A DNA stretch of 64,000 nucleotides from NCBI RefSeq assembly GCF_963576615.1, contig NC_088714.1, positions 38,781,572 through 38,845,571 on the forward strand. The letters run 5' to 3'. A model generated the notes under the pieces. That model was not told the DNA's origin and did no database searches. It worked only from the letters and a program-made list of their open reading frames with translations. Source of the DNA: Watersipora subatra (taxonomy: Eukaryota > Bryozoa > Gymnolaemata > Cheilostomatida > Watersiporidae). Of this stretch, positions 18,037 through 51,725 are shown piece after piece; position 1 is the stretch's first letter, and every line of letters starts with the position of its first letter. The translations under genes and the position numbers were made by a program.

Positions 18037-18382
18037 ATGCAAGCCATCTCATTATCATGGCTGCTTAAATACGCTATCCTTGTTAGACACGTTACTGCCG
18101 GGATTGACTTTCTTCATCGGTACGAAACATTTACCCCTCACTTGGTAGAGGAAGAGGTAGCCAACCATGTGAAGCGTTCCATGTATACGAAGAGCCATAG
18201 ACTCGAAGAGGAGCAGCCGGTGTATAGATTTGCTTTTGACAAGTTTGGAGTGCATTTTAGTATAATACTGACTAAGAGTAGTGACGTAGCGGATAATGCA
18301 GTTTTGTCCATATATGAAAGCTCTGGAAGGTATGAAGAAAAGCCTTTGAAAACAAACGATCGCCACACCGGATATTTAGAAG
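18037..18382 (+). CDS. ADAM17-like: ADAM17-like exon 1: signal peptide and prodomain
   Basis: Starts MQAISLSWLLKYAILVRH, a plausible signal peptide, then FLHRYETFTP and a prodomain strand pattern YRFAFDKFGVHFSIILTKS ending HTGYLEG. Donor AG|GTACAC, phase 1. The GYLEG-type motif matches the (T)GH/YxxGE block of ADAM10/17 prodomains. Confidence 0.8.
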
Positions 18383-21300: not shown

Positions 21301-22227
21301 GTTTATTTTGATCTGTTTGTTATTTGCTTCTGAGATGATTTTTGGTTAATTTCGAGCTTGTTTTGAATTGATTTCGAGTTGATTCTATGTTAACCTCTAA
21401 TTGATTTTGAGTCAGTTTTAATTTAACATCGAGTTTGTCTATAGTTTAAGTTTAGTTTGAGTTGAGTTTTAGCTGAGTTGGAGTTGATTTCAAGCTCAGT
21501 TTGTTTTAATTAGTTTGTGCTGTTGCGTGTGTTTGTATGCGCGTTTTGTGTGTGTGTTCTTTGTTTGTGTGTGGATCAGCCTGCATAAACACTCTGAATT
21601 TATTTACTAAACACTATGGACACTTCTCAACTTTAAGAGCATGTTTTCCGTGTTTTCCGCTAAGGCGCCAAAAAGTATTTGGTTTCAAAACTTTGTATGG
21701 TTTCTGAGAACCATGCTCTAGTACACAGACCTGTAGGCTATCTGATTCAAAATGATAGAAATCTTGGTCACGCCAGGCTTACTGCTAGTATGAAATAGTA
21801 CAGTGCATATAATATATATACATATAATATATATACATATAGTATATATCTATATTTCTCAAAGTATGTCCGTGTGTCGTATGTCTGTCTGCATTCCGGC
21901 TATAGCTATTATTAGAATAACTGCAGCTGAACAACAATGCTGACGCAATGTCATGGAGTACTGTCATTAGAAGCCTAGCAGCTTACTGCAACATTTCATT
22001 GGCAATGTGCCAGGCTAACAGCTCGAAAGTAACAGTTGTTTGACAAAGTTTTAAAACCTTTACAGTTGTTTTCATTTTTCTCTTAGTTTATTTAAACTAC
22101 ACAAAACACTTCTCTCATGATATGTAGTTTGAAAGTTAGAATAGTAAATGTTGTTATATGTTAAATACAAATCAACTTTTCTGTCCAGACTTTTTTATTA
22201 CCCGGGCAACACCGGGTAGTACAGCTA

Positions 22228-22267
<40 letters not shown>

Positions 22268-28200: not shown

Positions 28201-31200
28201 TAAGTTGCAGCTACTACATACTTTTTGCCTCCCAATTATTGACATACATTTAGTAACAACAGACATCATCATAGAGAGAATAACATTGTTATTATTTACA
28301 GCTAGTAACAACATATACATTATCATAGAAAGAATTACACTGATATTATTTACAGTTAGTAACAACATAGACATCATCATAGAAAGAATCACATTGTTAT
28401 TATTTACAGCTAGTAACAACATAGACATAATCATAGAAAGAATCACATTGTTATTATTTACAGTTAGTAACAACATAGGCTTCATCATAGCAAGGATCAC
28501 ACTGTTTAAGGATGAGCAGGCAAATCCAATGAGTCATGTTCAAGATGGTGAGGAAGCCCAGGTATTCTTGAACGCATTCACAGCTATTGATCACTCGAAG
28601 TACTGCCTTGGTGAGTATCTATCTTGAAGTTCTGCCTTGGTGAGTATCTATCTTGAAGTACTGCCTTGGTGAGTATCTATCTTGAAGTACTGCCTTGGTG
28701 AGTATCTATCTTGAAGTACTGCCTTGGTGAGTATCTATCTTGAAGTACTGCCTTGGTGAGTATCTATCTTGAAGTACTGCCTTGGTGAGTATCTATCTTG
28801 AAGTACTGCCTTGGTGAGTATCTATCTTGAAGTACTGCCTTGGTGAGTATCTATCTTGAAGTACTGCCTTGGTGAGTATCTATCTTGAAGTACTGCCTTG
28901 GTGAGTATCTATCTTGAAGTACTGCCTTGGTGAGTATCTATCTTGAAGTACTGCCTTGGTGAGTATCTGAGTTATTTATATTTAGTATATTAGTATTTGA
29001 GTAGTTTATTTGATCTTGTCACTTGCACAAACAGTGGTGGTGGTTACTACATGTAGGTCGATAGTAATCTACCTTACCTTTCAATTCTATTTACCAACGT
29101 TGGTGAGTTAGGAAGTCTCTCAACTTCTAGAGATTTTTATAGGCTCCTGCGATTATGTGAAAGTACGGTCTCTGTCGTCTAAATATCTAATCTTAAACGT
29201 CAGCTACAGCTATATGTTTTGATAAAAGCTTAGTTTGAGAACTATTACGAATGGGCAGCAAGTGAGTTTTACAGAAGTGTTAATTGCTTTCTCATGTTGC
29301 AGCACTTACTGATAATCTGTCACTAATATTTTAACACTCACTGATAATCTGTCACTCATGTTGCAGCACTTACCGATAATCTGTCACTAATATTTTAACA
29401 CTCACTGATAATCTGTCACTCATGTTGCAGCACTTACCGATAATCTGTCACTAATATTTTAGCACTTACTAATAATCTGTCACTCATGTTGCAGCACTTG
29501 CTAGTAATCTGTCACTAATGTTTTAGCACTTACTGATAATCTGTCACTCATGTTTCAGCACTTACTGATAATCTGTCACTCATGTTTCAGCACTTACTGA
29601 TAATCTGTCACTGATGTTTCAGCACTTACTGATAATCTGAGTTATTGCGATTGGAAAGTTACAAAATACAAAACCTTTCCTTGAAGCTGTATTTGATTGT
29701 TTGAAGAAGAGATTCTTATAGCAATGTAAGGCCAGAGCTTCTTTATTACTCTCACTTATAGCAATGTAAGGCCAGAGCTTCTTTATTACTCTCACTTATA
29801 GCAATGTAAGGCCAGAGCTTCTTTATTACTCTCACAAATATAATTTATTGTAGGGGTCATGTTCACCGTAGTAGATTTCTCCGAGGGTGTTCTAGGTCTA
29901 GCTTGGATTGCCAGTGAAAATTCATTGGATGCGGGCATCTGCAGCACCCCTTATCGATTTAGGAATGGTTCAACGCTGAGCTTCAACTCGGCCATTGTTA
30001 GTGCAAGAAACTATGGGGTGAGCTATGTCTATGTTATTAGCACAAAAGAAATGTTGAATGTATAATAATACAGAATTACCTAGGTAGTAGGTGTCGGGGC
30101 CAAGGTCTAACATTTCTATTTATGCTGGAACAAACCAAAATGGCAATTTAGTGGCTTCTTACAACAGTCGCAATACTCTAGCAACAGCAGTCCTCTAGTG
30201 GCAGTAATACTCTAGTGGTTGCAGTACTCTAGTGGCAGCAATACTGTAGTGACAGCAGTACTCTAGTGGTAGCAGTCCTCTGAGTATAAACATTAGTACT
30301 ATTGATAAAACTTAAAGTAAATAAATTGTTCATGGAACAAAAAGACCAGTAAGCTTTTGATTGACTATTACCAACAATCAAATTATTACCAACAATCCAA
30401 CTATTACTAAAATTCCAGCTACTACTAACAATCTCACTATTACCAATTATTTTCTAAAGCAGAGCTCCTACGACATTTTCTAAGCTGGTAAAGTATACAT
30501 TGTTGTAGAATGTCATCCCAACGCCGATGTTCACTATCACTCTCGTCCACGAACTAGGGCACAATTTTGGTGCTGAGCATGATAATAAGTCCCGCTATTC
30601 CTGCGCTCCAGGCAAGAATATTATTTCAGCTTTTCATCTCTCTTTTCTTCGTACTAATCTTTAATACTATTTTTCTATTTTTAGTTCCTGTATGAACTTG
30701 TACCGTACTAACTGAGAGACTATATGAACATGTACAGTACTAACTAAGAGAGAGACTATATGAACATGTACAGTACTAACTAAGAGACAGACTATATGAA
30801 CATGTACAGTACTAACTAAGAGAGAGACTATATGAACATGTACAGTACTAACTAAGAGAGAGACTATATGAACATGTACAGTACTAACTGAGAGAGACTA
30901 AATAAACTTGTACAGTACTAACTGAGAGAGACTATATGAACATGTACATTACTGAGAGAGACTATATGAACGTGTACAGTACTAACTGAGAGAGACTATA
31001 TGAACATGTACAGTACTGAGAGAGAGACTATATGAACATGTACAGTACTGAGAGAGACTACATGAACTTGTACAGTACTGAGAGAGACTATATGAACTTG
31101 TACAGTACTAACTAAGAGAGAGACTATATGAACATGTACAGTACTAACTAAGAGAGAGACTATATGAACATGTACAGTACTAACTGAGAGATACTACATG

Positions 31201-37200: not shown

Positions 37201-40200
37201 TCTACCATAAAAGTGGTTAGATGAATTCTTAGCTTTTTTAGGGGGTACATGTAAACACCGGTCTTTTCGAGATAGTTATTGATTAATGCTTATTAGTGTT
37301 TACTCCTATAGGAACAGCGAGATCAACCTCGGCACCTTCCAGGCAGCAGCCGAATCCGATTCGCAATGCTCCTTGATGAGACACACACACACACGACCTA
37401 GGTTAAAACAGTGGGAACCAGCCAGAACGGCAAATTGGCTTTGAGCCATGGGCCCATGGCAGTCATGTACTAAACCATAGCAAACAGAAATGATGTACCC
37501 TCAGGACAGCTGGAGCTGGGAGACAAGGAATTATAAATTCTGCAGAGCTTGCAGTGTTTTATGTGGACCAAGCTAGATAGAGTTCAAAAAACTCGGTTGG
37601 CTCTCAAAGCCATCCAAGATGATGTACAGTATGTCCAATGGTCTTACAAGACTCCCTGTATGGCGGACGCGCTCCCTGATCTTTTGTGAATTAGGAAAAA
37701 TTACAAGCTGCCTCCAACTAACTTAGTACTGGCCCATCTTGACAGCAATCGTCAAAAGGATAGTCAAAAGTTGTGAATATGCCAGGTTGCTTAAGCATCG
37801 TAGAACCACGACAACGATGGAAAGCAAAGGCAGTACACTGGTCGTTTTTGGCCAAAAAGTAGCCGTCAACCAAGTTGACAAATTTCTTACCATTCTGAGA
37901 GAAAACAGATAGATGTTGTTACTCACTGACCACTTCACCCTTTGGGAGTGCTGTGGCCCTGGCCCTGCTGAATGTCACAGCCCTGGTATTGGCTGATGCA
38001 CTTGACAAAAGAGTATTTTGTTACCTGAAACTGCCAGCGTAGATGCTCATGGACTAAGGAGCTCAGATAGAAAGCCAGCAGATGGCTTTACTCTGCCAGC
38101 TCTGGTGAGTGCACAAGACACGTACCACTCAGCATCACCGCAAGCCAATAGGATGGTGGAATGAAACACACAGAAACTAGGAGACTCGCTTCAGGCCACA
38201 CTGCTGGCCATGGGGAAATATATGTGAGATCTGCTCCTTCCCCAACTGATGAGAGCAAACTGGGGCATGCCACTCTCCACAACTAAAAAAATGTCAAACA
38301 TTTTCAAGCTGGGTAGAGAGCTAAAATTGCAAGATCAGTTGGAGTGTTACCCTTCCTTATTGAGTTTTTCTCCATTCACAGACTTGTGTGTGATCCAGCT
38401 GCAGGAGTGTGTAAGGACTGTGTGCGACTTGCACCCAGAAGCTCAGAAGGAAATTTTACAGGAAGGCAGGGAAGAGCCACTCCAATATGCCACACTGAAT
38501 TTGGCTATTCAACAAACGCCTGAAGAATGGGACAACTTGAAAATGCAAGTTATCTTTGTTGGACTGTATCAGGTCATAAAAGCCTGAGCCAATCGTACAT
38601 ACTTAATCAAACAGCAAGGGTAGTCCTCCTTTTTCCTCCTTTCAGAGGGAAAATAGGCTGAAACCCTTCTACACCTGTCCAGCAAAATTAGGGTGAGCAC
38701 CAATAACCCCTTAGCCCAAAAGAGGATTCAACATGAAGGGGTCGGTTACCATGGCTGTAGAAGGCAGTAAAAAATTGAAAGCAGCAATGATCGTCTCCCA
38801 GCTGATGGTATGCACAAAGCCTACTAAACAAATTTTGGAGCGCGGAAAAGAACCTGACAACTTTTTATACCACAGAAGCAAGGGAATTGGCCAACAAAAA
38901 TAGAGAAGGGGCCAATGTAGTCTCAGCAAAGATGGTTTGGCATAACCCAAGGATAGCCCACACTACCAGTAAGCCAGATCAGTATGAAGACTGAACGTGT
39001 CATTCAGTCAGGAACGCTAAATTATGGTGGGGTGATACAAGAAAGGCATTTCTTTTTTTAAGTTATACACTAAAGAAAGAAGTAAGTCGTCCCCTTTTCT
39101 GGCTACTGTTTAAATTCTTTGTGAGCCTGCAATTACATCAGACCTGACTACTGCTGGTCACAATTTCTACTACAAAACAATGAGTGACAATCTAGATTCT
39201 TCTCTGCAAGAACCTCTCATCCCGCTAAACACTTTTTCCCCGAGAGAAAAAGCCACCTCTACTCTGACTAAGCAAGGTAAGCCTATTGAGGTAGAGGCTC
39301 ATGAGCCAGTTAAAGAAGCATTAAAAGGGACAGCCAATCCGACTTAGCCTCAGCTAGCCTAAATAGTGGGCTACAAAAAAAGAGATTTCAGAAAGGAAGT
39401 GACCAGCGAGCTGAACCTGTTTCACAAATCTCCTTCCTTCAAACTATAGATGAACTCAACTTTCCAGAGCAGGCTGCCTCAGCAATGCTTGCCTTAGAAG
39501 TGACAGATGGTCTTGCAGCCAAGCTAGCCAATATTTGCCGAGTGTTCATCATATAGACAAAGCCAGCCCGAACAAAGATGGAACTTCCTTTGCCAATTCA
39601 GTCAAACTCAGTGAAAGTACTGAGGCTAGAGATACTCCAGATGTCACCCCTTAAGGCCACTAGAAATGGCTAGAAGAAAAGAGCTGTGAGGACAATTCAA
39701 TATCTTTTACCCAGACATTGGCGCATTGGACAACAAAAAGGACCGATGCGGCATCTGTCACTTAATCACAAGCAACAGACAAATCAGGTATCATGTGATG
39801 CAGCATTTTGGCTTGTTTGTTTGTCTGTGCTGCTGGTAGCACGTCTCTTAAGATCAGGTGCTGCATCATAATAAAAGAAAGCACCAAGCCTGAGAATACA
39901 AGCCAGCTATCTACCTGGTGGACCGGTCAGAGTGGGACCGGTTCCTAACAAGCCAGATTAAGACACCCTAACCGAGATGAGTCTGTGTACACCAACATTG
40001 ATGATACACCAACCCTGATGATAGAGAACCGATTCAAACCAGGCAAGAAAAGGAAGTTTGAGCCGACCCTGCCCAAACAAAGAAAAGACTGCCCGATTCA
40101 AGCAAAATCAGCAGACTTGGCGAAAAGATGGATTGGCTGGACCCTACAGCTGGCCAGCTTGACCATGAATAATAGAAAGTCATGTCTCTCTACCCTTTGA

Positions 40201-43200
40201 GTAAACACCAGAAACAGGTCAGTATCTCAGGCACTGGCGGAATAAAGGCCAGTCGCTAAAAGAGCCGCAATAAAGGAGGGCCTGACAACTACATACTTCA
40301 AGATGCTAGCAACTGGGAGGATGTGGCGCAAGTTGCATGCCGCCTAAACTTTTTAGATTCTGGAGAGCTCTTGAGTGTATCATATGTTATAGAGAGCTCT
40401 TGAGTGCATCATATATTATAGAGAGCTCTTGAGTGTATCATATCTTATAGAGAGCTCTTGACAGTATCATATGTTATAGAGAGCTCTTAAGTGTATCATA
40501 TGTTATAGAGAGCTCTTGAGTGTATCATATATTATAGAGAGCTTTTGAGTGTATCATATCTTATAGAGAGCTCTTGAGTGTATTATATGTTATAGAGAGC
40601 TCTTGAGTGTATCATATCTTATAGAGAGCTCTTGAGTGTATCATATCTTATACAGAGCTCTTGAGTGTATCTTATCTTATAGAGAGCTCTTGAGTGTATC
40701 ATATCTTATAGAGAGCTCTTGAGTGTATCATATGTTATAGAGAGCTCTTGAGTGTATCATATATTATAGAGAGCTCTTGAGTGTATCATATATTATAGAG
40801 AGCTCTTGAGTGTATCATATATTATAGAGAGCTCTTGAGTGTATCATATATTATAGAGAGCTCTTGAGTGTATCATATATTATAGAGAGCTCTTGAGTGT
40901 ATCATATATTATAGAGAGCTCTTGAGTGTATCATATGTTATAGAGAGCTCTTGAGTGTATCATATATTATAGAGAGCTCTTGAGTGTATCATATGTTATA
41001 GAGAGCTCTTGAGTGTATCATATATTATAGAGAGCTCTTGAGTGTATCATATCTTATAGAGAGCTTTTGAGTGTATCATATATTATAGAGAGCTCTTGAG
41101 TGTATCATATATTATAGAGAGCTCTTGAGCGTTTATGCATTTTAAAGCTTGTTTTTTTAATTTTTGGTGTAAGCTTTCAGATTTTTAATCCACCGATGAT
41201 TAGGTTCATATGATACTAATTTGTCTACATACTATAAAACCAGCAAAAAGCAAAACCTTCAAAAGCTTCATGAGAAAGCTGTACTATTGGCATGTTTAAA
41301 AATGGCAGCCACAATTGATTATGAATTTTTTTTATATGACAGATTGATTAATAGATCAAAGGTGTTGTTTGCACATTTGACTATAGAAGAATTTCCTTTG
41401 TTGATACCACGGAACATGCCTAACAAATGGGCTAGTCTTGCAAAGGTTTTCATAGTACGTTTGTACTTAACACCGCTCTATTACAATAACATAGACAGTC
41501 AATGACCATTCTATTAGTGTGACATAAGCAGTCAATGTTCCTGCGTCATATGATAGCATATCCTTCTTTTCCCACTGATGCATATGGAGATGAAAGCTGG
41601 CTGGATGATTGGAGAAAAGGTTTACCTATTTAAAACCTGTTAACCTGCGATGCCCTGTTAATTCATGAAAGATCTATTAGTCAATGCATAGTTAGAATAA
41701 TACTAACTTTCATTGTCGAAAAGTATATAAACCTAAAACACTTGGCAGGTCTGCTGACTTGTTCGAATGTAAGTTTTATGATGCTTGGAGAGTTGTTGGT
41801 GGAATCTGTAATGGTTGGTACATCTGATTATGCAACTGAAAAGTCTGTCTATATATTTTAGATCAACATCAAAATGCTCTGCCGTGGCTTCACGATGCTG
41901 CTCTCCAGAAACATGTGACTTTACTCCTGCTAGTGAAGCTGAAATGTGTAGCCTTAACTCTGACTGCAACGAAAAAGCTTACTGTAATGGACTAAGCGCA
42001 ACATGTCCAACACCCGCTAGCTTACCTGATGGAACACTGTGCAATCAAAATCTTATGGTAAAATCATTTTAATCCTTAGTAGTAGTGTATATGCTTATCT
42101 CAGTTGGTCATGTTGCTCACTCCGCTGTCAGCGTGGTAACTTTTCTCACTTTTTACGCTTACAGAAACATAGACTCTTCAATAATGGAACTTTGAGCTGA
42201 TTATTCTTAAACATTGTAAACCGTAATTCTTTATTAGTAAATCACACTTTGTCATTGTGTATAGGGATGCGCAGGGATGCGCAAGGGTGTGTAGGGATGG
42301 GGTGTAGCGTGTAGAAATGAGGCATAGGGTGTAGGGATGGGCCGTAGGGTGTAGGGGTGAAGTGTACTATTATAACTACCGCTATCATTACTATCACTAT
42401 TATTATTACTGTTATTACTACTCTTTAGCCAACTTATGGCGCTCACTCCAATATTATTTGAGTGATTAACAAAAATCATGGATGCCTTCCTGATGCTGTT
42501 TTCATGAGATACATTTACTATTTGATTACTACAATTACCATTTACTACAAGCTCTCTGCTACTAGGTTTGTATTAATGGAAAGTGCAGCGAGAATGTCTG
42601 CACCTACCATGGTTACAAGAGCTGTTACTGTACAGGCAGTGAAAATGATTGCCTCGTTTGCTGTCGACACAACACTACTGGAGAATGCAAACCTGCTGCA
42701 TTATGGGGTTTCAATGGTAGGTACCTGGAGACTTGATCAAACACCTAATATAGACATACACCTAATATGGACATACACCTAATACAGACATACATGTATA
42801 GCTAATATGGGCTTACACCTAACATGGACATATACCTAATACGAACATGCACCTATTATGGACATACACCTAATATGGACATACACCTAATATGGACATA
42901 CACCTAATATAGACATACATGTATAGCTAATATGGGCTTACACCTAACATGTACATATACCTAATACGAACATGCACCTAGTATGGACATACACCTAATA
43001 TGGACATACACCTAATACAGACATACACCTAATATAGACATACATGTACACCTAACATGGACATACACCTAATATGGACATACATGTACACCTAACATGG
43101 ACATACACCTAGTATGGACATACATGTACACCTAACATGGACATACACCTAGTATGGACATACATGTACACCTAACATGGACATACACTTAGTATGGACG

Positions 43201-46200
43201 TACATGTACACCTAATATGGACATACACCTAGTGTGGACATACATGTCTACCTAATATGGACATGCACCTAATATGAACATACACCTAGTATGGACATAC
43301 ACCTAGTATGGACGTACATGTACACCTAATATGGACATACACCTAGTGTGGACATACATGTCTACCTAATATGGACATGCACCTAATATGAACATACACC
43401 TAGTATGGACATACACCTAGTATGGACGTACATGTACACCTAATATGGACATACACCTAGTATGGACATATACCTAGTATGGACATACACCTAATATGGA
43501 CATACACCTAATATGGACATACACCTAGTATGGACATACATGTACACCTAATATGGACATACACCTAATATGGACATATACCTAGTGCGAACATACACCT
43601 AGTATGGACATACATGTACACCTACATGTTATATAAGCTGTTGAACAAAAAAGGCAGTGTTAGAAAGTTGATTTAAGAAGTTAAGGATAAGAAAAGGAGT
43701 TGCCTGCTTTTTCCTTCATATGGGATATAGAATGAGGCAAAGACGTCTTGATTAACGACTTGTAGCAAGAAATAAACTATTAATTGTGAAACCTTTGCCT
43801 TAATCTACTAAAAAAATTTAATCAAGTGAGTTTTTATTATTCCGCCTGGTGTCAAGTAGGATAAAAATTGTTCAAAGGGAATGGTTGATTGAAATCTATG
43901 AGTTAAGCTCTAGCTAATTCTGATGAACTTGATAAATAAATAATTACGCAAAAGATGTCAGAAGGCTTCTAGTGAAATTATTGTGTATCCTAATAACTAA
44001 CAAATTGCAAAGTGTAAGAGCGTGTGACTGTAAAATGTATAGTAAATAAACATAATGACTGACTTGATTAGTGTGATGTAACTGCAGTTTAACAAGTCTT
44101 TAAGGACTTCTTAAAGTAGGACAAGGTTGATAAGTGTCAAGCTTGCTAAATTGATAGTATTGATCTTAGTAGTAGTTACTAGCCTTGGGATAATTGTTGG
44201 TGCCTCAGTCATAATACAAAACACTTTTGATGTCTCAAGGATTATAGAAAAAGCAAACAAAATCTAATAACAGTTTTGCGTATGATTGAGTTAGTCTGCC
44301 ATTTTAAATCTTTGTGTAAAATCTATTATAAAGAATGTTCTTGTAACCTTGCATAAAAAAACATCATAAAAAGAAATGTGCACTTGTATCAATAAAAACC
44401 TGTAAAAATTGATTCAAGTCGGTAGGACCAACAATTACAATGAGTTCTCATGTTTTTTCTTACTTTGATATAGATTAAACACGCTTTAACTTTGCAATAA
44501 AAAATTTATTTAGCATCTTTTGTTCAGCTGGAATCGAGGGTGCCATACCTACTAATGGAATATGCATTGACGAAAGTGGACGCTGTGATGAGAACGGACT
44601 ATGCAGGTTTCCTAATGGTAGCTATGCAAAGGATGACATCATCAGGCTGGTCAAAGAATCAGCAAAAGATTTCATTGTTCTGCTCTCTGAATATTGGTGA
44701 GATCAAATGTTCATTTTTTCTTATTCTATATAGTGATGAGATCACATGTTCATTCTTTCTTATTCTATATAGTGATGAGATCACATGTTCATTCTTTCTT
44801 ATTCTATATAGGGATAAGATCACATGTTCATTCTTTCTTATTCTATATAGTGATGAGATCACATGTTCATTCTTTCTTATTCTATATAGTGATGAGATCA
44901 CATGTTCATTCTTTCTTATTCTATATAGGGATAAGATCACATGTTCATTCTTTCTCATTTTATATAGTGATGAGATCACATGTTCATCTTTCTCATTCTA
45001 TATAGTGATGAGATCACATGTTCATTCTTTCTTATTCTATATAGTGATGAGATCACATGTTCATCTTTCTCATTTTATATAGTGATGAGATCACATGTTC
45101 ATTCTTTCTTATTCTATATAGTGATGAGATCACATGTTCATTCTTTCTCATTCTATATAGTGATGAGATCACATGTTCATCTTTCTCATTCTATATAGTG
45201 ATGAGATCACATGTTCATTCTTTCTTATTCTATATAGTGATGAGATCACATGTTCATTCTTTCTTATTCTATATAGTGATGAGATCACATGTTCATTCTT
45301 TCTTATTCTATGTAGTGATGAGATCACATGTTCATTCTTTCTTATTCTATATAGTGATGAGATCACATGTTCATTCTTTCTCATTCTATATAGTGATGAG
45401 ATCACATGTTTATTCTTTCTCATTTTATATAGTGATGAGATCACATGTTCATTCTTTCTTATTCTATATAGTGATGAGATCACATGTTCATTCTTTCTTA
45501 TTCTATATAGTGATGAGATCACATGTTCATTCTTTCTCATTTTATATAGTGATGAGATCACATGTTCATCTTTCTCATTCTATATAGTGATGAGATCACA
45601 TGTTCATTCTTTCTTATTCTATATAGTGATGAGATCACATGTTCATTCTTTCTTATTCTATATAGTGATGAGATCACATGTTCATTCTTTCTTATTCTAT
45701 ATAGTGATGAGATCACATGTTCATTCTTTCTCATTCTATATAGTGATGAGATCACATGTTCATTCTTTCTCATTCTATATAGTGATGAGATCACATGTTC
45801 ATTCTTTCTTATTCTATATAGTGATGAGATCACATGTTCATTCTTTCTTATTCTATATAGGGATAAGATCACATGTTCATTCTTTCTTATTCTATATAGT
45901 GATGAGATCACATGTTCATTCTTTCTTATTCTATATAGTGATGAGATCACATGTTCATTCTTTCTTATTCTATATAGGGATAAGATCACATGTTTATTCT
46001 TTCTTATTCTATATAGTGATGAGATCACATGTTCATTCTTTCTTATTCTATATAGTGATGAGATCACATGTTCATTCTTTCTCATTCTATATAGTGATGA
46101 GATCACATGTTCATTCTTTCTCATTCTATATAGTGATGAGATCACATGTTCATCTTTCTCATTTTATATAGTGATGAGATCACATGTTCATTCTTTCTTA

Positions 46201-49200
46201 TTCTATATAGTGATGAGATCACATGTTCATCTTTCTTATTCTATATAGTGATGAGATCACATGTTCATTCTTTCTTATTCTATATAGTGATGAGATCACA
46301 TGTTCATTCTTTCTCATTCTATATAGTGATGAGATCACATGTTCATTCTTTCTCATTCTATATAGTGATGAGATCACATGTTCATTCTTTCTTATTCTAT
46401 ATAGTGATGAGATCACATGTTCATTCTTTCTTATTCTATATAGTGATGAGATCACATGTTCATTCTTTCTCATTCTATATAGTGATGAGATCACATGTTT
46501 ATTCTTTCTCATTTTATATAGTGATGAGATCACATGTTCATTCTTTCTTATTCTATATAGTGATGAGATCACATGTTCATTCTTTCTTATTCTATATAGT
46601 GATGAGATCACATGTTCATTCTTTCTCATTTTATATAGTGATGAGATCACATGTTCATTCTTTCTCATTTTATATAGTGATGAGATCACATGTTCATTCT
46701 TTCTTATTCTATATAGTGATGAGATCACATGTTCATTCTTTCTCATTCTATATAGTGATGAGATCACATGTTCATCTTTCTCATTTTATATAGTGATGAG
46801 ATCACATGTTCATTCTTTCTTATTCTATATAGTGATGAGATCACATGTTCATTCTTTCTTATTCTATATAGTGATGAGATCACATGTTCATTCTTTCTCA
46901 TTCTATATAGTGATGAGATCACATGTTCATCTTTCTCATTTTATATTGTGATAAGATCACATGTTCATTCTTTCTCATTCTATATAGTGATGAGATCACA
47001 TGTTCATTATTTCTCATTCTATATAGTGATGAGATCACATGTTCATCTTTCTCATTCTATATAGTGATGAGATCACATGTTCATTCTTTCTTATTTTATA
47101 TAGTGATGAGATCACATGTTCATTCTTTCTCATTCTATATAGTGATGAGATCACATGTTCATCTTTCTCATTTTATATAGTGATGAGATCACATGTTCAT
47201 TCTTTCTTATTCTATATAGTGATGAGATCACATGTTCATTCTTTCTTATTCTATATAGTGATGAGATCACATGTTCATTCTTTCTCATTCTATATAGTGA
47301 TGAGATCACATGTTCATCTTTCTCATTCTATATAGGGATAAGATCACATGTTCATTCTTTCTTATTCTATATAGTGATGAGATCACATGTTCATTCTTTC
47401 TCATTCTATATAGTGATGAGATCACATGTTCATTCTTTCTTATTCTATATAGTGGTGAGATCACATGTTCATTCTTTCTTATTCTATATAGTGATGAGAT
47501 CACATGTTCATTCTTTCTCATTCTATATAGTGATGAGATCACATGTTCATTCTTTCTTATTCTATATAGTGATGAGATCACATGTTCATTCTTTCTCATT
47601 CTATATAGTGATGAGATCACATGCTCATTCTTTCTCATTCTATATAGTGATGAGATCACATGTTCATTCTTTCTTATTTTATATAGTGATGAGATCACAT
47701 GTTCATTCTTTCTCATTCTATATAGTGGTGAGATCACATGTTCATTCTTTCTTATTCTATATAGTGATGAGATCACATGTTCATTCTTTCTTATTCTATA
47801 TAGTGGTGAGATTACATGTTCATTCTTTCTTATTCTATATAGTGATGAGATCACATGTTTTTTCTTTCTTATTCTATATAGTGGTGAGATCACATGTTCA
47901 TTCTTTCTTATTCTATATAGTGATGAGATCACATGTTCATTCTTTCTCATTTTATATAGTGATGAGATCACATGTTTATTCTTTCTCATTTTATATAGTG
48001 ATGAGATCACATGTTTATTCTTTCTTATTCTATATAGTGGTGAGATCACATGTTCATTCTTTCTTATTCTATATAGTGATGAGATCACATGTTCATTCTT
48101 TCTTATTCTATATAGTGGTGAGATCACATGTTCATTCTTTCTTATTCTATATAGTGATGAGATCACATGTTCATTCTTTCTTATTCTTTATAGTGATGAG
48201 ATCACATGTTCATTCTTTCTTATTCTATATAGTGATGAGATCAAATGTTCATTCTTTCTTATTCTATATAGTGATGAGATCACATGTTTATTCTTTCTTA
48301 TTCTATATAGTGATGAGATCACATGTTTATTCTTTCTTATTCTATATAGGGATGAGATCACATGTTCATTCTTTCTTATTCCATGTAGTGGTCGGTCTAC
48401 TTGTATATTCTATTTAATTATACAGAGTGGTATGGTTTTATACTTTATTTTATTATATATAGTGTTATGGTTGTATATTCTCTCTTATTTTCTAGTATAG
48501 TTCTGTATTCTATTTTGCACGAATAATGGCATAAATGCGTGCTTGACTTCATTTTGAAAAGTGGTATTTTATTGTGTTTCACTTAATTCTGAGTAGTGTT
48601 CGGGTTTTGTATTTGGCTATATTTTATCTCACATGTTATAGGCTTGAATGTCTGTGATCATTTTGAAATACTCATTAATAGCAAAGAAAAAATGGTTGCT
48701 ATCGAGTGTCATTGTTGACCTGTTTTTTGATGTACCAATGTTAAAATCTTATCTGTGTATTTGCATGTTTACCAAGCACTATCAAAGTATATATTGCAAG
48801 TGACATGCTCTTTGTGGTCACACATGTAATATACTCTTTTTGGTACGCACCTGTGTAGATGGTAGTATCAACAATTTGAACTAACGTTTGTGTAGATGCT
48901 ACCCTCTGTTTTATACACATTGGGAGGTGGTACATTCTGTTGTTTAGATTTGTGTAAATTTTAGACTGTTTTCTACTAAGGTGCAGACGCTACATTTTAT
49001 TGTATACATACATTTAGGTACTACTCTTTTTTGTATGTAATTATGTAGATGTTATTTTCGGTTATATGTAATTTTTTAGGTACTACTTTCTGTTGTATGC
49101 TATTTTGTAGGTACTACGCTTTGTTGTATGCTATTTTGTAGGTACTACGCTTTGTTGTATGCTATTTTGTAGGTACTACGCTTTGTTGTATGCTATTTTG

Positions 49201-51725
49201 TAGGTACTACGCTTTGTTGTATGCTATTTTGTAGGTACTACGCTTTGTTGTATGCTATTTTGTAGGTACTACGCTTTGTTGTCACTGGCTGGAGTTTGCG
49301 GTCTTGTTGCCCTTTTTACATTCATTCACAGAAGCACGAAGCCAGTGCAGTCGATGGCTTACAAAGATGGACGAATGGCCTATGTCTGGTTTGAGGCTAG
49401 AAGTAGACTCGCAAGTGTATGTGTAAATTGAAAGTAGATGTAATGCATGTTGAAGTCTGTTGCATGAATGAAATATAATGAGACTCATGATGCAAGGTTA
49501 TACATACATCTAGTGTATACATTAATTATACATACATCTAGTGTATACATTCATTATACATACATCTAGTGTATATCTAGTGTATGCAGCTTTTCACAAA
49601 TAGATTTGGAGTCAATTTGGAGAAATAGCTGGGGATAATAACTGTAAAATAACTAGCCTGTATGTTTTTCGTTATAATAAAATCTCTGATACAAATGTAC
49701 TCTTATCAGGTATTCAAATATTCACATACACAAATTTGTAATATTTTGATATTCAGTATTCCAATATTTTAATAGCAATAACGTAGGTCAATAAAAAATA
49801 CAAATAGGTGTTATTATGGAGTTAAACAAAAAACTTAAATACCCATATATACTTGAAACTCCACTGCCCTTGATTTAATTATAGTATGTTTTTGTGTGAC
49901 TTTTGCAAGTCATTATTTTCATGAATTACTTTGATTCAAAAAAGAAATAACTATTCAACATATTTTAGTCATGAGCTATCCACTTCATTTGTAGAGACTA
50001 CCAATTTGCTACCTCGTTATGATCACATTTGTTCATTAACGCACTCAGACCTCAGCAAGAGTTGTCTTTCCTTTAATTGACTATTACTATCTACTAGTAA
50101 ACTTCTGCATAGACTTTATTCTAAATGAAACTTTTGAGTTCATTCTCCTCCAACTTAAAACTTTCTGCAAATAACTGTAATCATTTCAGATTGAAGCTGA
50201 GTTAAAGGCTCTGGAGAAATATGTTCCTCCGACCTCCCTTCCTTATCCAATAGCGATTAGGAGGATAGCTTACCAGTTTCCAACAGCACCACACTCACTC
50301 TATTCAAGGTACAATAAAGTATAGGGTAGTTATATCAGCTGTACACAAGTACAGAATAGTTGTTGTAGCAGCTGCACACAAGCATAGAGTAGTTATATCA
50401 GCTGTACACAAGTATAGAGTAGTTATAACAGCTGTACACAAGTATAGAGTAGTTGTAGCAGCTGTACACACTAAAGTATAGAGTTGTCATCTCCTGCATC
50501 ACATAAGAAAGATTTGTGGAAGCATTATCAATAATGTATGTTACTAATGTGCATATACATGAGCGATAGTATGTTGTCTTCTCTTGTTTCTCTAATTTAA
50601 AGAGATCCCTAATCATTAGATTATTACCTCTATTAGAATTTCACAAGATACAAAATAAGCATGTAGGAATATGACTGGCTGCTATTATTGCAATCATACA
50701 GATGTGAAATTGAGCACTCTCCACCTGAAGTACATAACATGAGAAATTTAAACATTTGTAGAGGTAAAAATACTCTAGATTCACTGTTTGCTGGCAGCGT
50801 GTAATTTTGGATCTAAATTTTGTAGTTTTAATACTATAGAAGTCTCTTATATTTGTCTAGTAATTGTGACAAATTTTGTATGCAGATTTAACACTCAATT
50901 CCTATCGTTATCTTTAACATACATTTTATTAAATTTAGTATTAGGAACAATTTTTGGTTTTATTTTTATAATGACTTAACATATCTCTATGGCTAGTATA
51001 CCTCTATGGTTAGCATACCTCTAACCATTTAAGGTAGCGTAGCAGACATTCAACACAGAGCAAGACATATCATACAGAGTTGATCTTAATTTATTTTATA
51101 TTATCACGTTACACCCTAATACAACATTTACACCATTGCACTATGTTATATTACATTTTAATATATGTGATATTTTTTAATACTGCAATTTATTACGTTA
51201 ATATCAGGTTTTTAACATTACGTGCTTTTATACTTTTTCCTTGTTAAAATAAACTTACTTGCTTCTTGTTTCAGATACATGGTTCAGTGTGAACGTGAAC
51301 GGGAAGTGCTTGCTTCTTGTTTCAGATACATGGTTCAGTGCGAACGTGAACGGGAAGTGCTTGCTTCTTGTTTCAGATACATGGTTCAGTGTGAACGTGA
51401 ACGGGAAGTGCTTGCTTCTTGTTTCAGATACATGGTTCTGTGTGAACGTGAACGGAAAGTGCTTGCTTCTTGTTTCAGATACATGGTTCAGTGTGAACGT
51501 GAACGGGAAGTGCTTGCTTCTTGTTTAAGATACATGGTTCAGTGTGAACGTGAACGGAAAGTGCTTGCTTCTTGTTTCAGATACATGGTTCAGTGCGAAC
51601 GTGAACGGGAAGTGGTGAAGCTCCTCCTACTCAAAGGCTATCCAATGAGAAAACTCCTAACTGATGAAAATGATGAACGACACGAGCAAAAAGCAATAGA
51701 CAAGACTCTGGCTCACAAAAAATAG
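18037..51725 (+). CDS. ADAM17-like: ADAM17/TACE-like membrane metalloprotease, 16 coding exons
   Basis: Coding exons: 18037-18382, 18552-18702, 23689-23809, 26571-26718, 27760-27834, 28464-28610, 29854-30017, 30509-30611, 32060-32260, 33209-33311, 41862-42057, 42566-42716, 44528-44696, 49266-49422, 50190-50308, 51581-51725. All phases agree; the shortest form has 831 residues, near the usual ADAM17 length. Domains: signal peptide 1-21, prodomain to KR at 211-212, catalytic domain with the zinc motif HELGHNFGAEHD at 398-409, disintegrin-like and membrane-proximal Cys-rich region (about 480-690), one transmembrane helix at about 693-713, and a cytoplasmic tail. Family members shed ectodomains of membrane proteins at the cell surface. 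ADAM17 is favoured over ADAM10 by HELGHNFGAEHD, VCFQER, CLVCC and the post-Cys amphipathic segment. No Cys is present between residues 22 and 234, so a cysteine switch is not visible. Several splice junctions lie in or beside tandem arrays. Confidence 0.85.
18552..18702 (+). CDS. ADAM17-like: ADAM17-like exon 2: prodomain
   Basis: Acceptor TGTTTTCAG, donor AG|GTATGG, phase 1 to 2. Reads DETAIVSGRILANNVFNG and then the NTYFLEP block, equivalent to the xYxIEP block in ADAM10/17 prodomains. Confidence 0.8.
19080..20650. repeat. 49-bp tandem minisatellite (about 32 copies)
   Basis: Units of 49 bp with the core TGTATTGGAGCATACTCTAC and the ending CTGGACTGGTGTATTGCTATTAATGGAA. Located in intron 2 of the ADAM17-like gene. 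Because 49 is not a multiple of 3, the long open stretches that cross it (such as 19851-20252) cycle through frames and are not coding. Confidence 0.95.
20760..21500. repeat. Degenerate TTGAGTTGATTT low-complexity tract
   Basis: Hundreds of bases of loosely periodic sequence built from GAGTTGATTTTGAGTTG-like words at irregular spacing. It looks like an old, decayed minisatellite. It lies in intron 2 of the ADAM17-like gene. Confidence 0.6.
21849..22228 (+). mobile_element. Non-autonomous Helitron-like element, copy A
   Basis: Begins TCTATATTTCTCAAAGTATG and ends with a GC-rich hairpin CCCGG-GCAACA-CCGGG at 22201-22216 followed by TAGTACAGCTAG. TC at the start, a short hairpin about 10 nt before the end and CTAG at the end are the Helitron rules. 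A reverse-strand copy is at 62805-63182. There is no Rep/helicase coding region. Could instead be another non-TIR repeat class. Confidence 0.55.
22890..22975. repeat. AT-rich palindrome
   Basis: TATAGTATATATGTAGTGTATACAAT-like sequence is followed within a few bases by a near reverse complement ending ATTGTATACATACTACTATATA. It could extrude a long cruciform. It resembles TATA-rich repeats seen at element borders elsewhere in the window. Confidence 0.65.
23081..23153. repeat. C-rich hairpin-like segment related to 14598-14635
   Basis: Starts TGACATACAGCCCC, includes a CCATTGG/CCAATGG inverted pair and ends GAGGGCTGTGTATCATTG. The outer arms match those at 14598-14635 with one or two changes. 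Both copies are followed by ATTGATGGA or ATTGGATGGA, pointing to a shared dispersed element. Confidence 0.65.
23689..23809 (+). CDS. ADAM17-like: ADAM17-like exon 3: end of prodomain
   Basis: Acceptor TTGATTCTAG, donor GTGAGT, phase 2 to 0. Reads YTDLDFSKYPKLARKNDG and PPEYIIAARQKGR. The exon is preceded by four short TTGATTGTAT repeats that run into its polypyrimidine tract. Confidence 0.8.
24441..24798 (+). mobile_element. Helitron-like element, copy B
   Basis: Starts TCTATATATGTATTTCTCAA and ends CCCGGGCAACGCCAGGATGC followed by ACAGCTAG. Contains the shared segment CTATAGCTATTATTAGAATA and GCTTACTG...CATTAGCAATG found in copy A. The next element starts on the following base. Confidence 0.55.
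24885..24960 (-). other. tRNA-like segment inside a dispersed repeat
   Basis: On the minus strand TAGCAAAGAGGTTAGCACAC resembles a pol III A box region, and GGTTTTGAGTTCAATTGC about 25 nt later resembles a B box. The equivalent position of copy D (25990-26070) has TTAATGGGTTATC and GGTTCAAGTTCAAATCC. It is not a functional tRNA gene by eye: the stem pairing is poor. Confidence 0.4.
25070..25135 (+). other. tRNA-like segment (plus strand)
   Basis: GGCTTAGTGGTAATGCACTT fits an A box and GGGTTACATTCCTA is a B-box-like match about 45 nt downstream. The spacing suits a tRNA or tRNA-derived SINE head. It sits inside Helitron-like copy C. Confidence 0.35.
25477..25832 (+). mobile_element. Solo LTR, 356 bp, TSD ATTG
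   Basis: Begins TGTTGTGGCGAAGCC and ends CAGTTTCCTTTACA, with the 4-bp duplication ATTG on both sides (25473-25476 and 25833-25836). A TATAAAAG box lies at 25637-25644. TG...CA ends, a TATA box and a short duplication fit an LTR left by recombination of a Gypsy-type retrotransposon. It shares end sequence with the LTR at 53215-53591. Confidence 0.75.
25902..26390 (+). mobile_element. Helitron-like element, copy D
   Basis: Starts TCTATATATATAAATCTTAG almost directly after copy C and ends CATTTAACTCGTAG, a worn CTAG end. Carries the TAGCTTAAGTTACGCAAATT and CATTACCTGCCACT blocks of the family. With copies B and C it forms a head-to-tail series of three. Confidence 0.5.
26571..26718 (+). CDS. 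ADAM17-like: ADAM17-like exon 4: processing site and start of the protease domain
   Basis: Acceptor ATTTTGTAG, donor G|GTAAGT, phase 0 to 1. Reads KPQQKRHVDGNG, with a dibasic KR site for proprotein convertases, then CPLHVFIDHRFFEQLG, the first strand of the ADAM catalytic domain. Confidence 0.85.
26880..27215. repeat. Degenerate tandem repeat of about 30 bp
   Basis: About 11 diverged units around GGCTAGCGAATCAGATCCTG followed by GAACTGTGGT. It lies within intron 4 and is much older than the near-perfect arrays. Confidence 0.75.
27350..27450. repeat. TTATTGTATG short tandem repeat
   Basis: Short degenerate units TGTTATTATATGTTGTTGTA in intron 4 of the ADAM17-like gene. Confidence 0.7.
27760..27834 (+). 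CDS. ADAM17-like: ADAM17-like exon 5: protease domain
   Basis: Acceptor CTGTCGCAG, donor G|GTTAGT, phase 1 to 1. Reads TIETVVDHLDKADVIFRSTK, corresponding to the helix after the first strand that ends in DxIYxxT in ADAM17. Confidence 0.85.
28250..28463 (+). repeat. 54-bp tandem array duplicating the exon 6 acceptor and exon start
   Basis: Four units of 54 bp, the last being the true exon start. Each has TTATTATTTACAG then TTAGTAACAACATAG, so each carries a usable acceptor. Potential exon starts are at 28302, 28356, 28410 and 28464. All four read in one open frame, so each upstream acceptor would add 18 residues of the SNNIDIIIERITLLLFT type. Confidence 0.85.
28464..28610 (+). CDS. ADAM17-like: ADAM17-like exon 6: protease domain
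   Basis: Phase 1 to 1. Reads SNNIGFIIARITLFKDEQAN and then FLNAFTAIDHSKYCLG, matching the segment before the YCLA/VCLA strand in ADAM10/17. The acceptor is the last of four tandem copies, and the donor the first of thirteen. Confidence 0.85.
28611..28970 (+). repeat. 29-bp tandem array duplicating the exon 6 donor (13 donor copies)
   Basis: The unit is TACTGCCTTG|GTGAGTATCTATCTTGAAG, the last 10 or so bases of exon 6 plus the 5' end of the intron. Donor GT positions run every 29 bp from 28611 to 28959. Only the first donor keeps the frame open: TGA appears in frame within the first repeat. Confidence 0.9.
29280..29640. repeat. 32-bp tandem repeat (about 11 copies)
   Basis: Units around CACTTACTGATAATCTGTCA followed by CTCATGTTGCAG or CTAATATTTTAG. 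Many units therefore contain an AG after a T-rich stretch, but the following bases do not resemble exon 7. Confidence 0.85.
29726..29836. repeat. 41-bp tandem repeat (3 near-perfect copies) before exon 7
   Basis: Three copies of CTTATAGCAATGTAAGGCCA followed by GAGCTTCTTTATTACTCTCA, ending 18 bp before the exon 7 acceptor. Confidence 0.85.
29854..30017 (+). CDS. ADAM17-like: ADAM17-like exon 7: protease domain
   Basis: Acceptor TTATTGTAG, donor GTGAGC, phase 1 to 0. Reads VMFTVVDFSEGVLGLAWIAS, then AGICSTPYRF and SARNYG. The FxxxDFxxGxLGLAxx block and NYG are hallmark ADAM10/17 sequence. Confidence 0.9.
30509..30611 (+). CDS. ADAM17-like: ADAM17-like exon 8: zinc-binding active site
   Basis: Acceptor TTGTTGTAG. 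Reads PMFTITLVHELGHNFGAEHD, with the three zinc His and the catalytic Glu of a reprolysin-type metalloprotease all intact. The best donor is a GC type, CCAG|GCAAGA, leaving phase 1; a GT donor about 40 nt downstream (CTTC|GTACTA) would also leave phase 1. Confidence 0.85.
30690..31670. repeat. 34-bp tandem minisatellite (about 29 copies)
   Basis: Units around GACTATATGAACATGTACAG followed by TACTAACTGAGAGA, with variable numbers of AG steps and occasional shortened units lacking CTAA. It starts about 75 bp inside intron 8. Confidence 0.9.
32060..32260 (+). CDS. ADAM17-like: ADAM17-like exon 9: protease domain end (Met-turn) and hinge
   Basis: Reads LNADIILDGDDGNYIMYELS, with the YIMY Met-turn, then FVFSTCST and RMPVCFQERYIAICGNFRID. 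Donor GTGAGT, phase 1. The acceptor that keeps phase with exon 8 is GAGACAG|AA at 32060; an upstream TATAG (exon from 32053) would need a phase-0 partner. Confidence 0.85.
32420..32475. repeat. CACAC-rich low-complexity tract
   Basis: CACACTACCCACCGCACACC-type simple sequence in intron 9. Confidence 0.7.
32755..32975. repeat. 45-bp tandem repeat (about 5 copies)
   Basis: Units around CTTTTCACACTCAGTACTCT followed by TATAGTTACTCTTCTTACGAGACCT in intron 9. The 15-residue periodic ORFs on both strands here are repeat artefacts. Confidence 0.85.
33209..33311 (+). CDS. ADAM17-like: ADAM17-like exon 10: disintegrin-like domain
   Basis: Acceptor CTACAACAG, donor AA|GTGAGT, phase 1 to 2. Reads DTEECDCGTEATCSS and then DSCCSVFASNSSNQCKLK, the EECDCG start and CC motif of an ADAM disintegrin domain. 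Confidence 0.85.
33759..34537. mobile_element. pogo/Tigger-type element, non-autonomous, 779 bp, TSD TA
   Basis: Left end CAGTGGACCCTCGATTCTCG; right end is the reverse complement of CAGTGGAACTTCGGTACTCG. TA flanks both sides (33757-33758 and 34538-34539). The ends match those of 8273-9067, but the interior carries no recognisable transposase. Confidence 0.85.
34550..35900. other. Intron 10 DNA with worn repeats
   Basis: Starts with a TGTCTGTC-rich tract (34585-34630) preceded by TATTATAATAAGAGCAG, similar to starts of dispersed repeats elsewhere in the window. The remainder to 35900 shows no exon or recognised element. Confidence 0.4.
35900..36300. mobile_element. Fragments of two dispersed repeats
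   Basis: The GGCGTTCAATTGGA / GTTCAATTAGAGGTT segment at 35980-36110 resembles the MITE ends at 17811-17926. Immediately after it, 36120-36300 carries the TAGCTTAAGTTACTCAAA and CTACATTATCTGCCACT blocks of the Helitron-like family. Confidence 0.45.
36590..38590 (+). pseudogene. Decayed Ty3/Gypsy pol: RNase H and integrase remnants
   Basis: At 36680-36930 one frame reads WYILVTDVSAHSVGLIRFQ, then KTLTTLKHDYCITRSKLLV and KHFRLYLYGQKFLL, the Gypsy RNase H pattern (DASxxGxGAVLxQ, NYxxTxxELLAVV, HFRxYLxGxxF). At 37860-38330, across stops and frame changes, segments such as VAVNQVDKFL, SASPQANRMVE and KMSNIFKLGRELKLQ match an integrase core (YHPQxNGxVER) and the region after it. Many stops, lost catalytic residues and no LTRs nearby show a dead copy. 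Its base composition is less AT-rich than the flanking intron. Confidence 0.7.
38591..40350 (+). other. Continuation of the retroelement-like, less AT-rich segment
   Basis: The composition and many short open stretches in one direction suggest this is part of the same dead retroelement insertion. No gag, zinc-knuckle or protease motif could be identified with confidence. Confidence 0.35.
40362..41128. repeat. 29-bp tandem minisatellite (about 26 copies)
   Basis: Units TAGAGAGCTCTTGAGTGTAT followed by CATATATTA. Very uniform; the variants are CATATGTTA, CATATCTTA and CATATATTA. GAGAGCTCTT contains a 6-bp palindrome AGAGCTCT. Located in intron 10. Confidence 0.95.
41129..41861. other. End of intron 10, unassigned ORF
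   Basis: An open stretch at 41221-41505 starts with STYYKTSKKQNLQKLHEKAV and includes TIEEFPLLIPRNMPNKWASL. It has no recognised domain. It might be a remnant of a mobile-element ORF. Confidence 0.25.
41862..42057 (+). CDS. ADAM17-like: ADAM17-like exon 11: disintegrin-like and Cys-rich region
   Basis: Acceptor ATATTTTAG, donor ATG|GTAAAA, phase 2 to 0. Reads CSAVASRCCSPETCDFTP, then CSLNSDCNEKAYCNGLSATC. The CCxxxC and YCNGxSxxCP patterns are those of ADAM disintegrin domains. Confidence 0.85.
42255..42365. repeat. Short G-rich tandem repeat
   Basis: About 10 short units of the form GGGTGTAGGGATG in intron 11, followed by an ATT/ACT trinucleotide-rich tract to about 42425. Confidence 0.75.
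42566..42716 (+). CDS. ADAM17-like: ADAM17-like exon 12: membrane-proximal Cys-rich domain
   Basis: Acceptor CTACTAG, donor AATG|GTAGGT, phase 0 to 1. Reads VCINGKCSENVCTYHGYKSC, then YCTGSENDCLVCCRHNTTGE. The VCINGKC start and the CLVCC motif match the equivalent ADAM10/17 segment. Confidence 0.85.
42745..43625. repeat. 17-bp tandem minisatellite (about 50 copies)
   Basis: Units ACATACACCTAATATGG with a second-order unit in which ACATGTACACCTAACATGG alternates. It begins about 30 bp after the exon 12 donor. Confidence 0.9.
43626..44527. other. Intron 12, nothing recognised
   Basis: AT-rich DNA without repeats, elements or exons that could be supported. Confidence 0.5.
44528..44696 (+). CDS. 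ADAM17-like: ADAM17-like exon 13: end of Cys-rich domain and juxtamembrane helix
   Basis: Acceptor TTTTGTTCAG, donor TTG|GTGAGA, phase 1 to 2. Reads GICIDESGRCDENGLCRFPN, then an amphipathic segment RLVKESAKDFIVLLSEYW that corresponds in position to the membrane-binding helix of ADAM17. Confidence 0.85.
44697..48400 (+). repeat. 38/39-bp minisatellite starting at the exon 13 donor (about 95 copies)
   Basis: The unit is GTGATGAGATCACATGTTCA followed by TTCTTTCTTATTCTATATA. The first unit is the intron start itself, GTGAGATCAAATGTTC. Some units read TATAGTGGTGAGATCACATG and so regenerate a GTGAGA donor. Most units are 39 bp, some 38 bp (TTCATCTTTC), which shifts the frame. Long ORFs on both strands (13-residue period, SHVHSFLFYIVMR) come from the 39-bp unit lacking stops and show no other sign of coding. 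Confidence 0.95.
48401..49079. other. Intron 13 tail with decayed repeat words
   Basis: T-rich sequence with diverged copies of TTGTATTCTATTTTG and later of TTGTATGTAATTATGTAG, which look like worn relatives of the neighbouring arrays. Confidence 0.45.
49080..49265 (+). repeat. 31-bp tandem array duplicating the exon 14 acceptor
   Basis: Six units of GTACTACGCTTTGTTGTATG followed by CTATTTTGTAG, the first being worn. Each unit holds the acceptor TTTTGTAG and the first 17 bases of exon 14. Potential exon starts are at 49080, 49111, 49142, 49173, 49204, 49235 and the true 49266. Confidence 0.9.
49266..49422 (+). CDS. ADAM17-like: ADAM17-like exon 14: transmembrane helix
   Basis: Phase 2 to 0 with donor TGT|GTAAAT. 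Reads WYYALLSLAGVCGLVALFTF then IHRSTKPVQSMAYKDGR: a clear single membrane helix followed by basic residues, as in a type I membrane protein. The donor is weaker than the others; a GTGTAT or GTGTAA site a few bases away would break the frame into exon 15. Confidence 0.8.
49495..49580. repeat. Short 27-bp tandem repeat (3 copies)
   Basis: Three units of TATACATACATCTAGTGTAT in intron 14. Confidence 0.75.
50190..50308 (+). CDS. ADAM17-like: ADAM17-like exon 15: cytoplasmic tail
   Basis: Acceptor AATCATTTCAG, donor CAAG|GTACAA, phase 0 to 2. Reads IEAELKALEKYVPPTSLPYP, then RRIAYQFPTAPHSLYSR. It has a short PPTSLPYP proline segment; no SH3 site of the vertebrate ADAM17 type is evident. Confidence 0.75.
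50309..50480 (+). repeat. About 32-bp repeat beginning at the exon 15 donor (about 5 copies)
   Basis: The intron starts GTACAATAAAGTATAGGGTA and the next units read GTACACAAGTATAGAGTAGT followed by TATATCAGCT. The donor bases GTACA thus recur at each unit, although the exon part AGCT differs from CAAG. Confidence 0.7.
50481..51258. other. Intron 15, nothing recognised
   Basis: AT-rich DNA with no supported exon. Short direct repeats CTCTATGG(C/T)TAG(T/C)ATAC occur near 50985-51025. Confidence 0.45.
51259..51580 (+). repeat. 51-bp tandem array duplicating the last-exon acceptor (7 acceptors)
   Basis: Unit GTGCTTGCTTCTTGTTTCAG then ATACATGGTTCAGTGTGAAC and GTGAACGGGAA. Potential exon starts are 51275, 51326, 51377, 51428, 51479, 51530 and 51581; the copy before 51530 reads TTTAAG instead of TTTCAG. 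Every unit is 17 codons and open, encoding RYMVQCERERE VLASCF repeats. Confidence 0.9.
51581..51725 (+). CDS. ADAM17-like: ADAM17-like exon 16: C-terminal tail and stop
   Basis: With the last acceptor the tail reads RYMVQCEREREVVKLLLLKG and ends DKTLAHKK with stop TAG at 51723-51725. The tail is rich in Glu, Arg and Lys. Using the first acceptor (51275) instead would add 102 residues and give 933 residues in total. A candidate poly(A) signal AATAAA is at 52255-52260. Confidence 0.75.

Follow-up and report, generated by a model that had tools for sequence, protein, structure and literature searches.

The locus examined here raises the question of why so many exon-intron borders of a single gene lie within tandem arrays, and whether such borders promote tandem duplication or merely tolerate it. 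The window, by which we mean the whole 64,000-nucleotide stretch of DNA that was analysed (C7:38781572-38845571 of the bryozoan Watersipora subatra, in an assembly of 783,720,542 bases and 239 contigs), contains a gene that a first-pass annotation had described as ADAM17-like, with arrays of mutually unrelated units on five, and probably six, of its splice junctions. Exon-intron borders were suggested there either to seed duplication or to carry arrays that are tolerated or selected because all they contribute is splice-site redundancy.

The 16 predicted exons of the model built here join in phase into one 829-residue frame with a single terminal stop (Table 1). Among solved structures the best match of the product is ADAM10 (8esv_A, E 4.7e-68, residues 232-701), which is also the closest over its metalloprotease and disintegrin region. 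The best ADAM17 structure (E 1.4e-58) ranks after three ADAM10 sequences, and four of the 83 relatives listed are named ADAM 17-like, the majority of the named ones being ADAM10. We therefore rejected the ADAM17 identity. Reprolysin_5 exceeds its Pfam cut-off in the product; the Pfam Disintegrin match scores 33.1 bits, below the curated cut-off of 35.1, and for that reason we label the gene ‘ADAM10-like’. Exon 8 apparently ends at a GC donor of intron 8 (CCAG/gcaaga, at window positions 30603-30616), and the large intron 10 (33312-41861) contains open frames that appear mobile-element-like.

An NCBI-predicted W. subatra protein (P0001, ‘disintegrin and metalloproteinase domain-containing protein 10-like’) matches the 829-residue product at 79% over 72%, and eleven main pieces of it match the window at 94-100%. 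This model is partial (532 residues): it lacks exons 1 to 3, skips exon 5, includes positions 38384-38575 of the large intron instead of our exons 10 and 11, and disagrees with ours at exons 4, 5, 9, 10 and 11. These disagreements, together with the predicted nature of the exon edges and the fact that splicing to an upstream acceptor would turn the acceptor arrays of exons 6 and 16 into coding sequence, are what favors the view that our exon model is wrong and that some arrays are merely coding repeats or lie outside exons. Against it stand the single frame held by all 16 exons, the agreement of P0001 with our exon edges at exons 6, 13, 14, 15 and 16, and the alignment of the exon 6 translation to ADAM10 from its first residues onward; we regard such an error as extremely unlikely.

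Table 1. Positions, in the window, of the ADAM10-like gene, selected exons and the tandem arrays near their borders (a slash marks an exon edge).
Feature	Positions	Strand	Remarks
ADAM10-like metalloprotease gene, 16 coding exons, 829 aa	18037..51725	+	spliced frame without internal stop
Exon 6	28464..28610	+	ttatttacag/TTAGT ... GCCTTG/gtgagt
Exon 13	44528..44696	+	gene model
Exon 14	49266..49416	+	gene model
Exon 15	50190..50308	+	gene model
Exon 16, including stop	51581..51725	+	gene model
54-bp array x 4.8, straddles exon 6 acceptor	28251..28506	+	43 exon bases inside
29-bp array x 12.8, straddles exon 6 donor	28597..28968	+	99% matches; 14 exon bases inside
39-bp array x 95.2, straddles exon 13 donor	44691..48390	+	6 exon bases inside
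31-bp array x 8.6, straddles exon 14 acceptor	49015..49282	+	17 exon bases inside
51-bp array x 7.0, straddles exon 16 acceptor	51258..51614	+	34 exon bases inside
30-bp array x 5.0, intron 15, non-straddling	50317..50470	+	begins after 8 intron bases

Tandem Repeats Finder (TRF) identified arrays at all six places flagged by the first-pass annotation. Combined with the exon model, its output indicated that five of the 30 junctions of the gene (three acceptors and two donors) are straddled by a minisatellite, the units of which hold both exon and intron sequence, with 6-43 exon bases lying inside the array. The sixth candidate, at the exon 15 donor, was excluded as a straddling array; its start lies 8 bp within the intron.

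The splice signal is retained in many units. Exact copies number four at the exon 6 acceptor (TTTACAG), where the upstream copies are open and in frame and the copy in the exon deviates from the 54-bp consensus at several bases; 13 at the exon 6 donor (CTTGGTGAGTAT); six at the exon 14 acceptor; and six, in seven units, at the exon 16 acceptor. At exon 13, the last six exon bases and the donor sit in the first unit of the array; the motif GGTGAGA occurs only seven times in about 95 units (the real donor included), and the weaker AGTGATGAGAT is present 81 times. The arrays are of unequal age: the units adjoining exon 14 are identical and the distal ones decayed, as against the 99% likeness of the units at the exon 6 donor.

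Comparison of the repeat units with one another largely bore out the description of them as unrelated, since 14 of 15 pairs were not alike beyond 200 shuffles. The remaining pair, the 29-bp unit of the exon 6 donor and the 31-bp unit of the exon 14 acceptor, is weakly alike, with a significance that depends on the shuffle used (its score was reached in 11 of 6000 letter shuffles and in 426 of 6000 rough dinucleotide shuffles). The units at 28597-28625 and 49263-49293 align, with gaps, across nearly their whole length. Separately, a 32-bp repeat in intron 6 (29303-29634) is 67-76% identical to a cluster on another contig (C9:62951558-62953851), and some minisatellite units are therefore common to distant places. 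A DNA search of this one assembly with the exon 6 region returned that region itself as the sole full match, with no paralogue or second haplotype.

Tandem arrays are common in this genome and denser still around the gene. The window contains 64 merged TRF arrays, which cover 30% of the window and of which 36 lie within the gene; arrays (period at least 20, score at least 100) cover 14% of 20 random 10-kb stretches drawn from four contigs. The corresponding densities are 0.50 per kb in the window versus 0.195 per kb in the random stretches.

The copies of the splice sites differ in what their use would do to the reading frame. At exon 6 the first-copy acceptor would add 162 nt without a stop (the 54-bp unit is open in frame), and at exon 16 the first-copy acceptor would add 306 nt, also without a stop, in a frame that is open throughout and gains 17 residues per unit. 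At exon 14 the next acceptor upstream (one 31-bp unit away) shifts the frame and other copies lead to early stops; a stop also follows from splicing at the second copy of the exon 6 donor (29-bp unit), and an early stop from reading on to another copy of the exon 13 donor (39-bp unit). The predicted protein P0001 is consistent with exon-proximal sites at exons 6, 13, 14 and 16. The open units at exons 6 and 16 lend something to the idea that the arrays are kept by selection, whether for redundant splice sites or for in-frame insertions that give useful protein variants. We nevertheless think this very unlikely, given the stops at the other three junctions, the variation of the exon 16 units themselves in protein sequence (VQC/VLC, EREV/ERKV, SCF/SCL), and the fact that three of the five straddling arrays have unit lengths divisible by three where chance would give about one third.

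The number of straddled junctions was compared with chance under several null models. When the arrays of the gene were re-placed at random (rejecting placements that swallowed an exon, fell inside one, or overlapped one by more than the unit length plus 10 bp), 0.62-1.15 straddled junctions were expected versus the five seen (P 0.0003-0.0066 over five thresholds). An edge-based local null, which considers only the position of the exon-facing edge of each array near a junction, gave an expectation of 1.41-1.65 (P 0.014-0.027 over three thresholds). A cruder local null based on array length expected 3.08 (P 0.20); we judged it unfit for arrays comparable in length to the 230-bp flank considered, and substituted the edge-based null. 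Straddling in the ADAM10-like gene thus exceeds chance, with 0.6-1.7 junctions expected by two nulls and a P of 0.20 by the crudest, and all of these within-gene P values are post hoc because the gene had been flagged for these very arrays.

A blind sample was drawn from matches to the Pfam Myosin_head family elsewhere in the genome (65 of 147 candidates scored). It comprised 66 of the 75 listed matches and their 132 junctions, with 230 bp on each side, in 13 gene neighborhoods by our own grouping. Of the nine matches omitted, seven lie at two places on contig C4 in seemingly intronless open frames of 269-598 residues, and two are others; some further matches in long frames were retained. Splice sites were taken as the best-scoring candidates, and were weak for 5 of 66 acceptors and 13 of 66 donors (18 of 132 junctions). 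Two of the 132 junctions, both donors, were straddled, versus 1.79-2.52 expected by the edge-based test and 2.98 by the array-length null. One (locus L057) is crossed by a 31-bp array of 2.3 copies. The other (L052) is crossed by a 43-bp array of just two copies, 100% identical, which from its sequence looks like a recent duplication spanning the donor and would represent the first stage in the life of such an array. Two more arrays lie very close to donors: that of L076 (position 391) begins at the donor GT, and that of L038 (minus strand, 856) begins 1 bp past it. L038 was tried as a straddling case and dropped, a better donor being found 1 bp before the array; its inclusion would bring the tally to three, versus 1.79-2.53 expected.

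The myosin sample shows no sign of seeding at splice sites, its count being at the neutral expectation. The ratio of observed to expected straddles has a 95% range of 0.10-2.87, which makes strong seeding improbable for these junctions and is compatible with a weak bias of up to about threefold. An ab initio exon search over 256,200 bp returned 46 further candidates, of which several were evidently repeats or frames of mobile elements, and all 46 were kept outside these counts; among the real-looking exons (L017, L020, L023 and L028), by-eye inspection alone saw no straddling array.

The two samples differ more than their array content explains. Five of 30 junctions are straddled in the ADAM10-like gene versus two of 132 in the myosin sample (Fisher P 0.0026), and exon-facing array edges number 14 at the 30 junctions of the former and 25 at the 132 junctions of the latter; the higher straddling in the ADAM10-like gene is only partly due to denser arrays near its junctions. 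Pooling the two gives seven straddles versus 3.2-4.2 expected (P 0.045-0.13). This difference, together with the excess within the gene and the arrays of L076 and L038 that start at or 1 bp after a donor GT (as does an array in the human gene ABCA7, discussed below), speaks for a mechanism in which exon-intron borders themselves promote tandem duplication, for instance by transcription-linked breaks or by short AG/GT-like matches shared by unit ends. The blind sample, at expectation, and the choice of the ADAM10-like gene for its arrays both weigh against that mechanism, which we consider unlikely; the seeding proposed by the first-pass annotation is in this sense not upheld, with a bias below about 2.9-fold compatible with the myosin counts and the flagged gene above expectation. 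It is similarly improbable that, in the lineage of this bryozoan, minisatellites are born at splice junctions at two to three times the intronic rate, which would make the junctions true hot spots. Were they so, such genes would accumulate redundant splice-site arrays and would be continually provided with sequence from which new introns and in-frame repeat insertions could form.

We believe, with fair assurance, that these arrays are ‘mirage’-type minisatellites of the sort that a repeat-rich genome produces in the ordinary way, by local tandem duplication followed by gains in copy number, and that those crossing junctions are kept as near neutral. Minisatellites would arise throughout the genome by local duplication. 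A duplication across a junction would preserve a complete exon edge, with its splice site, in the copy nearest the exon (the last copy for an acceptor, the first for a donor), and would be near neutral and retained because that one whole edge persists; a duplication within an exon would alter the protein and be removed. An intact copy is indeed present at the exon end of each straddling array. Copy number could later expand as in any minisatellite, and the spliceosome would presumably use the exon-proximal site, with upstream copies at exons 6 and 16 also usable without breaking the frame. Junction-crossing arrays should then persist nearly as well as intronic ones, and this near-equal survival predicts that straddling scales with the length of the unit and the density of arrays, as it does in the myosin sample. 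The abundance of arrays in the window and the random stretches, their unequal ages, the two-copy array of L052 and the fit of P0001 to exon-proximal sites also favor neutral retention; the Fisher and pooled comparisons and the weak picks among the myosin splice sites count against it. The suggestion that the arrays are tolerated as merely adding redundant splice sites fits these observations.

The first-pass annotation knew of no described system of this kind, but two precede it. Amphioxus ‘mirages’ are described as minisatellite-like tandem duplications over exon-intron boundaries, at acceptors and donors alike (PMC3087553), in the genes for Adh3 and the globins BflGb6 and BflGb9 and, according to PMC3902484, troponin C and PGBD5; AG/GT signals are kept in many units, and unit length differs per gene (PMC3087553; PMC3902484). 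The bryozoan arrays resemble them, as there described, in mixing exon and intron sequence, affecting both boundary types and keeping the signal in many units. They differ in their phylum, in the presence of five in one gene and in reaching 95 copies; the amphioxus cases have RT-PCR and allele data, and the bryozoan ones are known from the sequence of one assembly. In human ABCA7, a 25-bp VNTR in intron 18 has as its first two bases the donor GT of exon 18, and both canonical splicing and retention of one unit, by splicing at a donor located one unit further along, are reported (PMC5954066). That account concerns a single human case with known length variation and a disease association, and describes an array that starts at the GT, whereas those in Watersipora take in exon bases. 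Tandem genomic duplication across AG/GT sites has also been proposed as the first step of intron gain (PMC3087553; PMC4974935); the starting step is the same, and the bryozoan gene shows no new intron.

Splice-junction minisatellites are thus known already, and what is new is their phylum and their density in one gene. In the literature searched we found no reports of arrays straddling splice junctions in Bryozoa, to which such arrays are here extended from amphioxus and one human gene. The myosin sample provides a first baseline of two straddling arrays per 132 junctions, in line with neutral geometry. The ADAM10-like gene itself offers natural sets of redundant splice sites, with six exact acceptor copies at exon 14, six more at exon 16 and 13 donor copies at exon 6, on which the choice among several equivalent sites could be studied.
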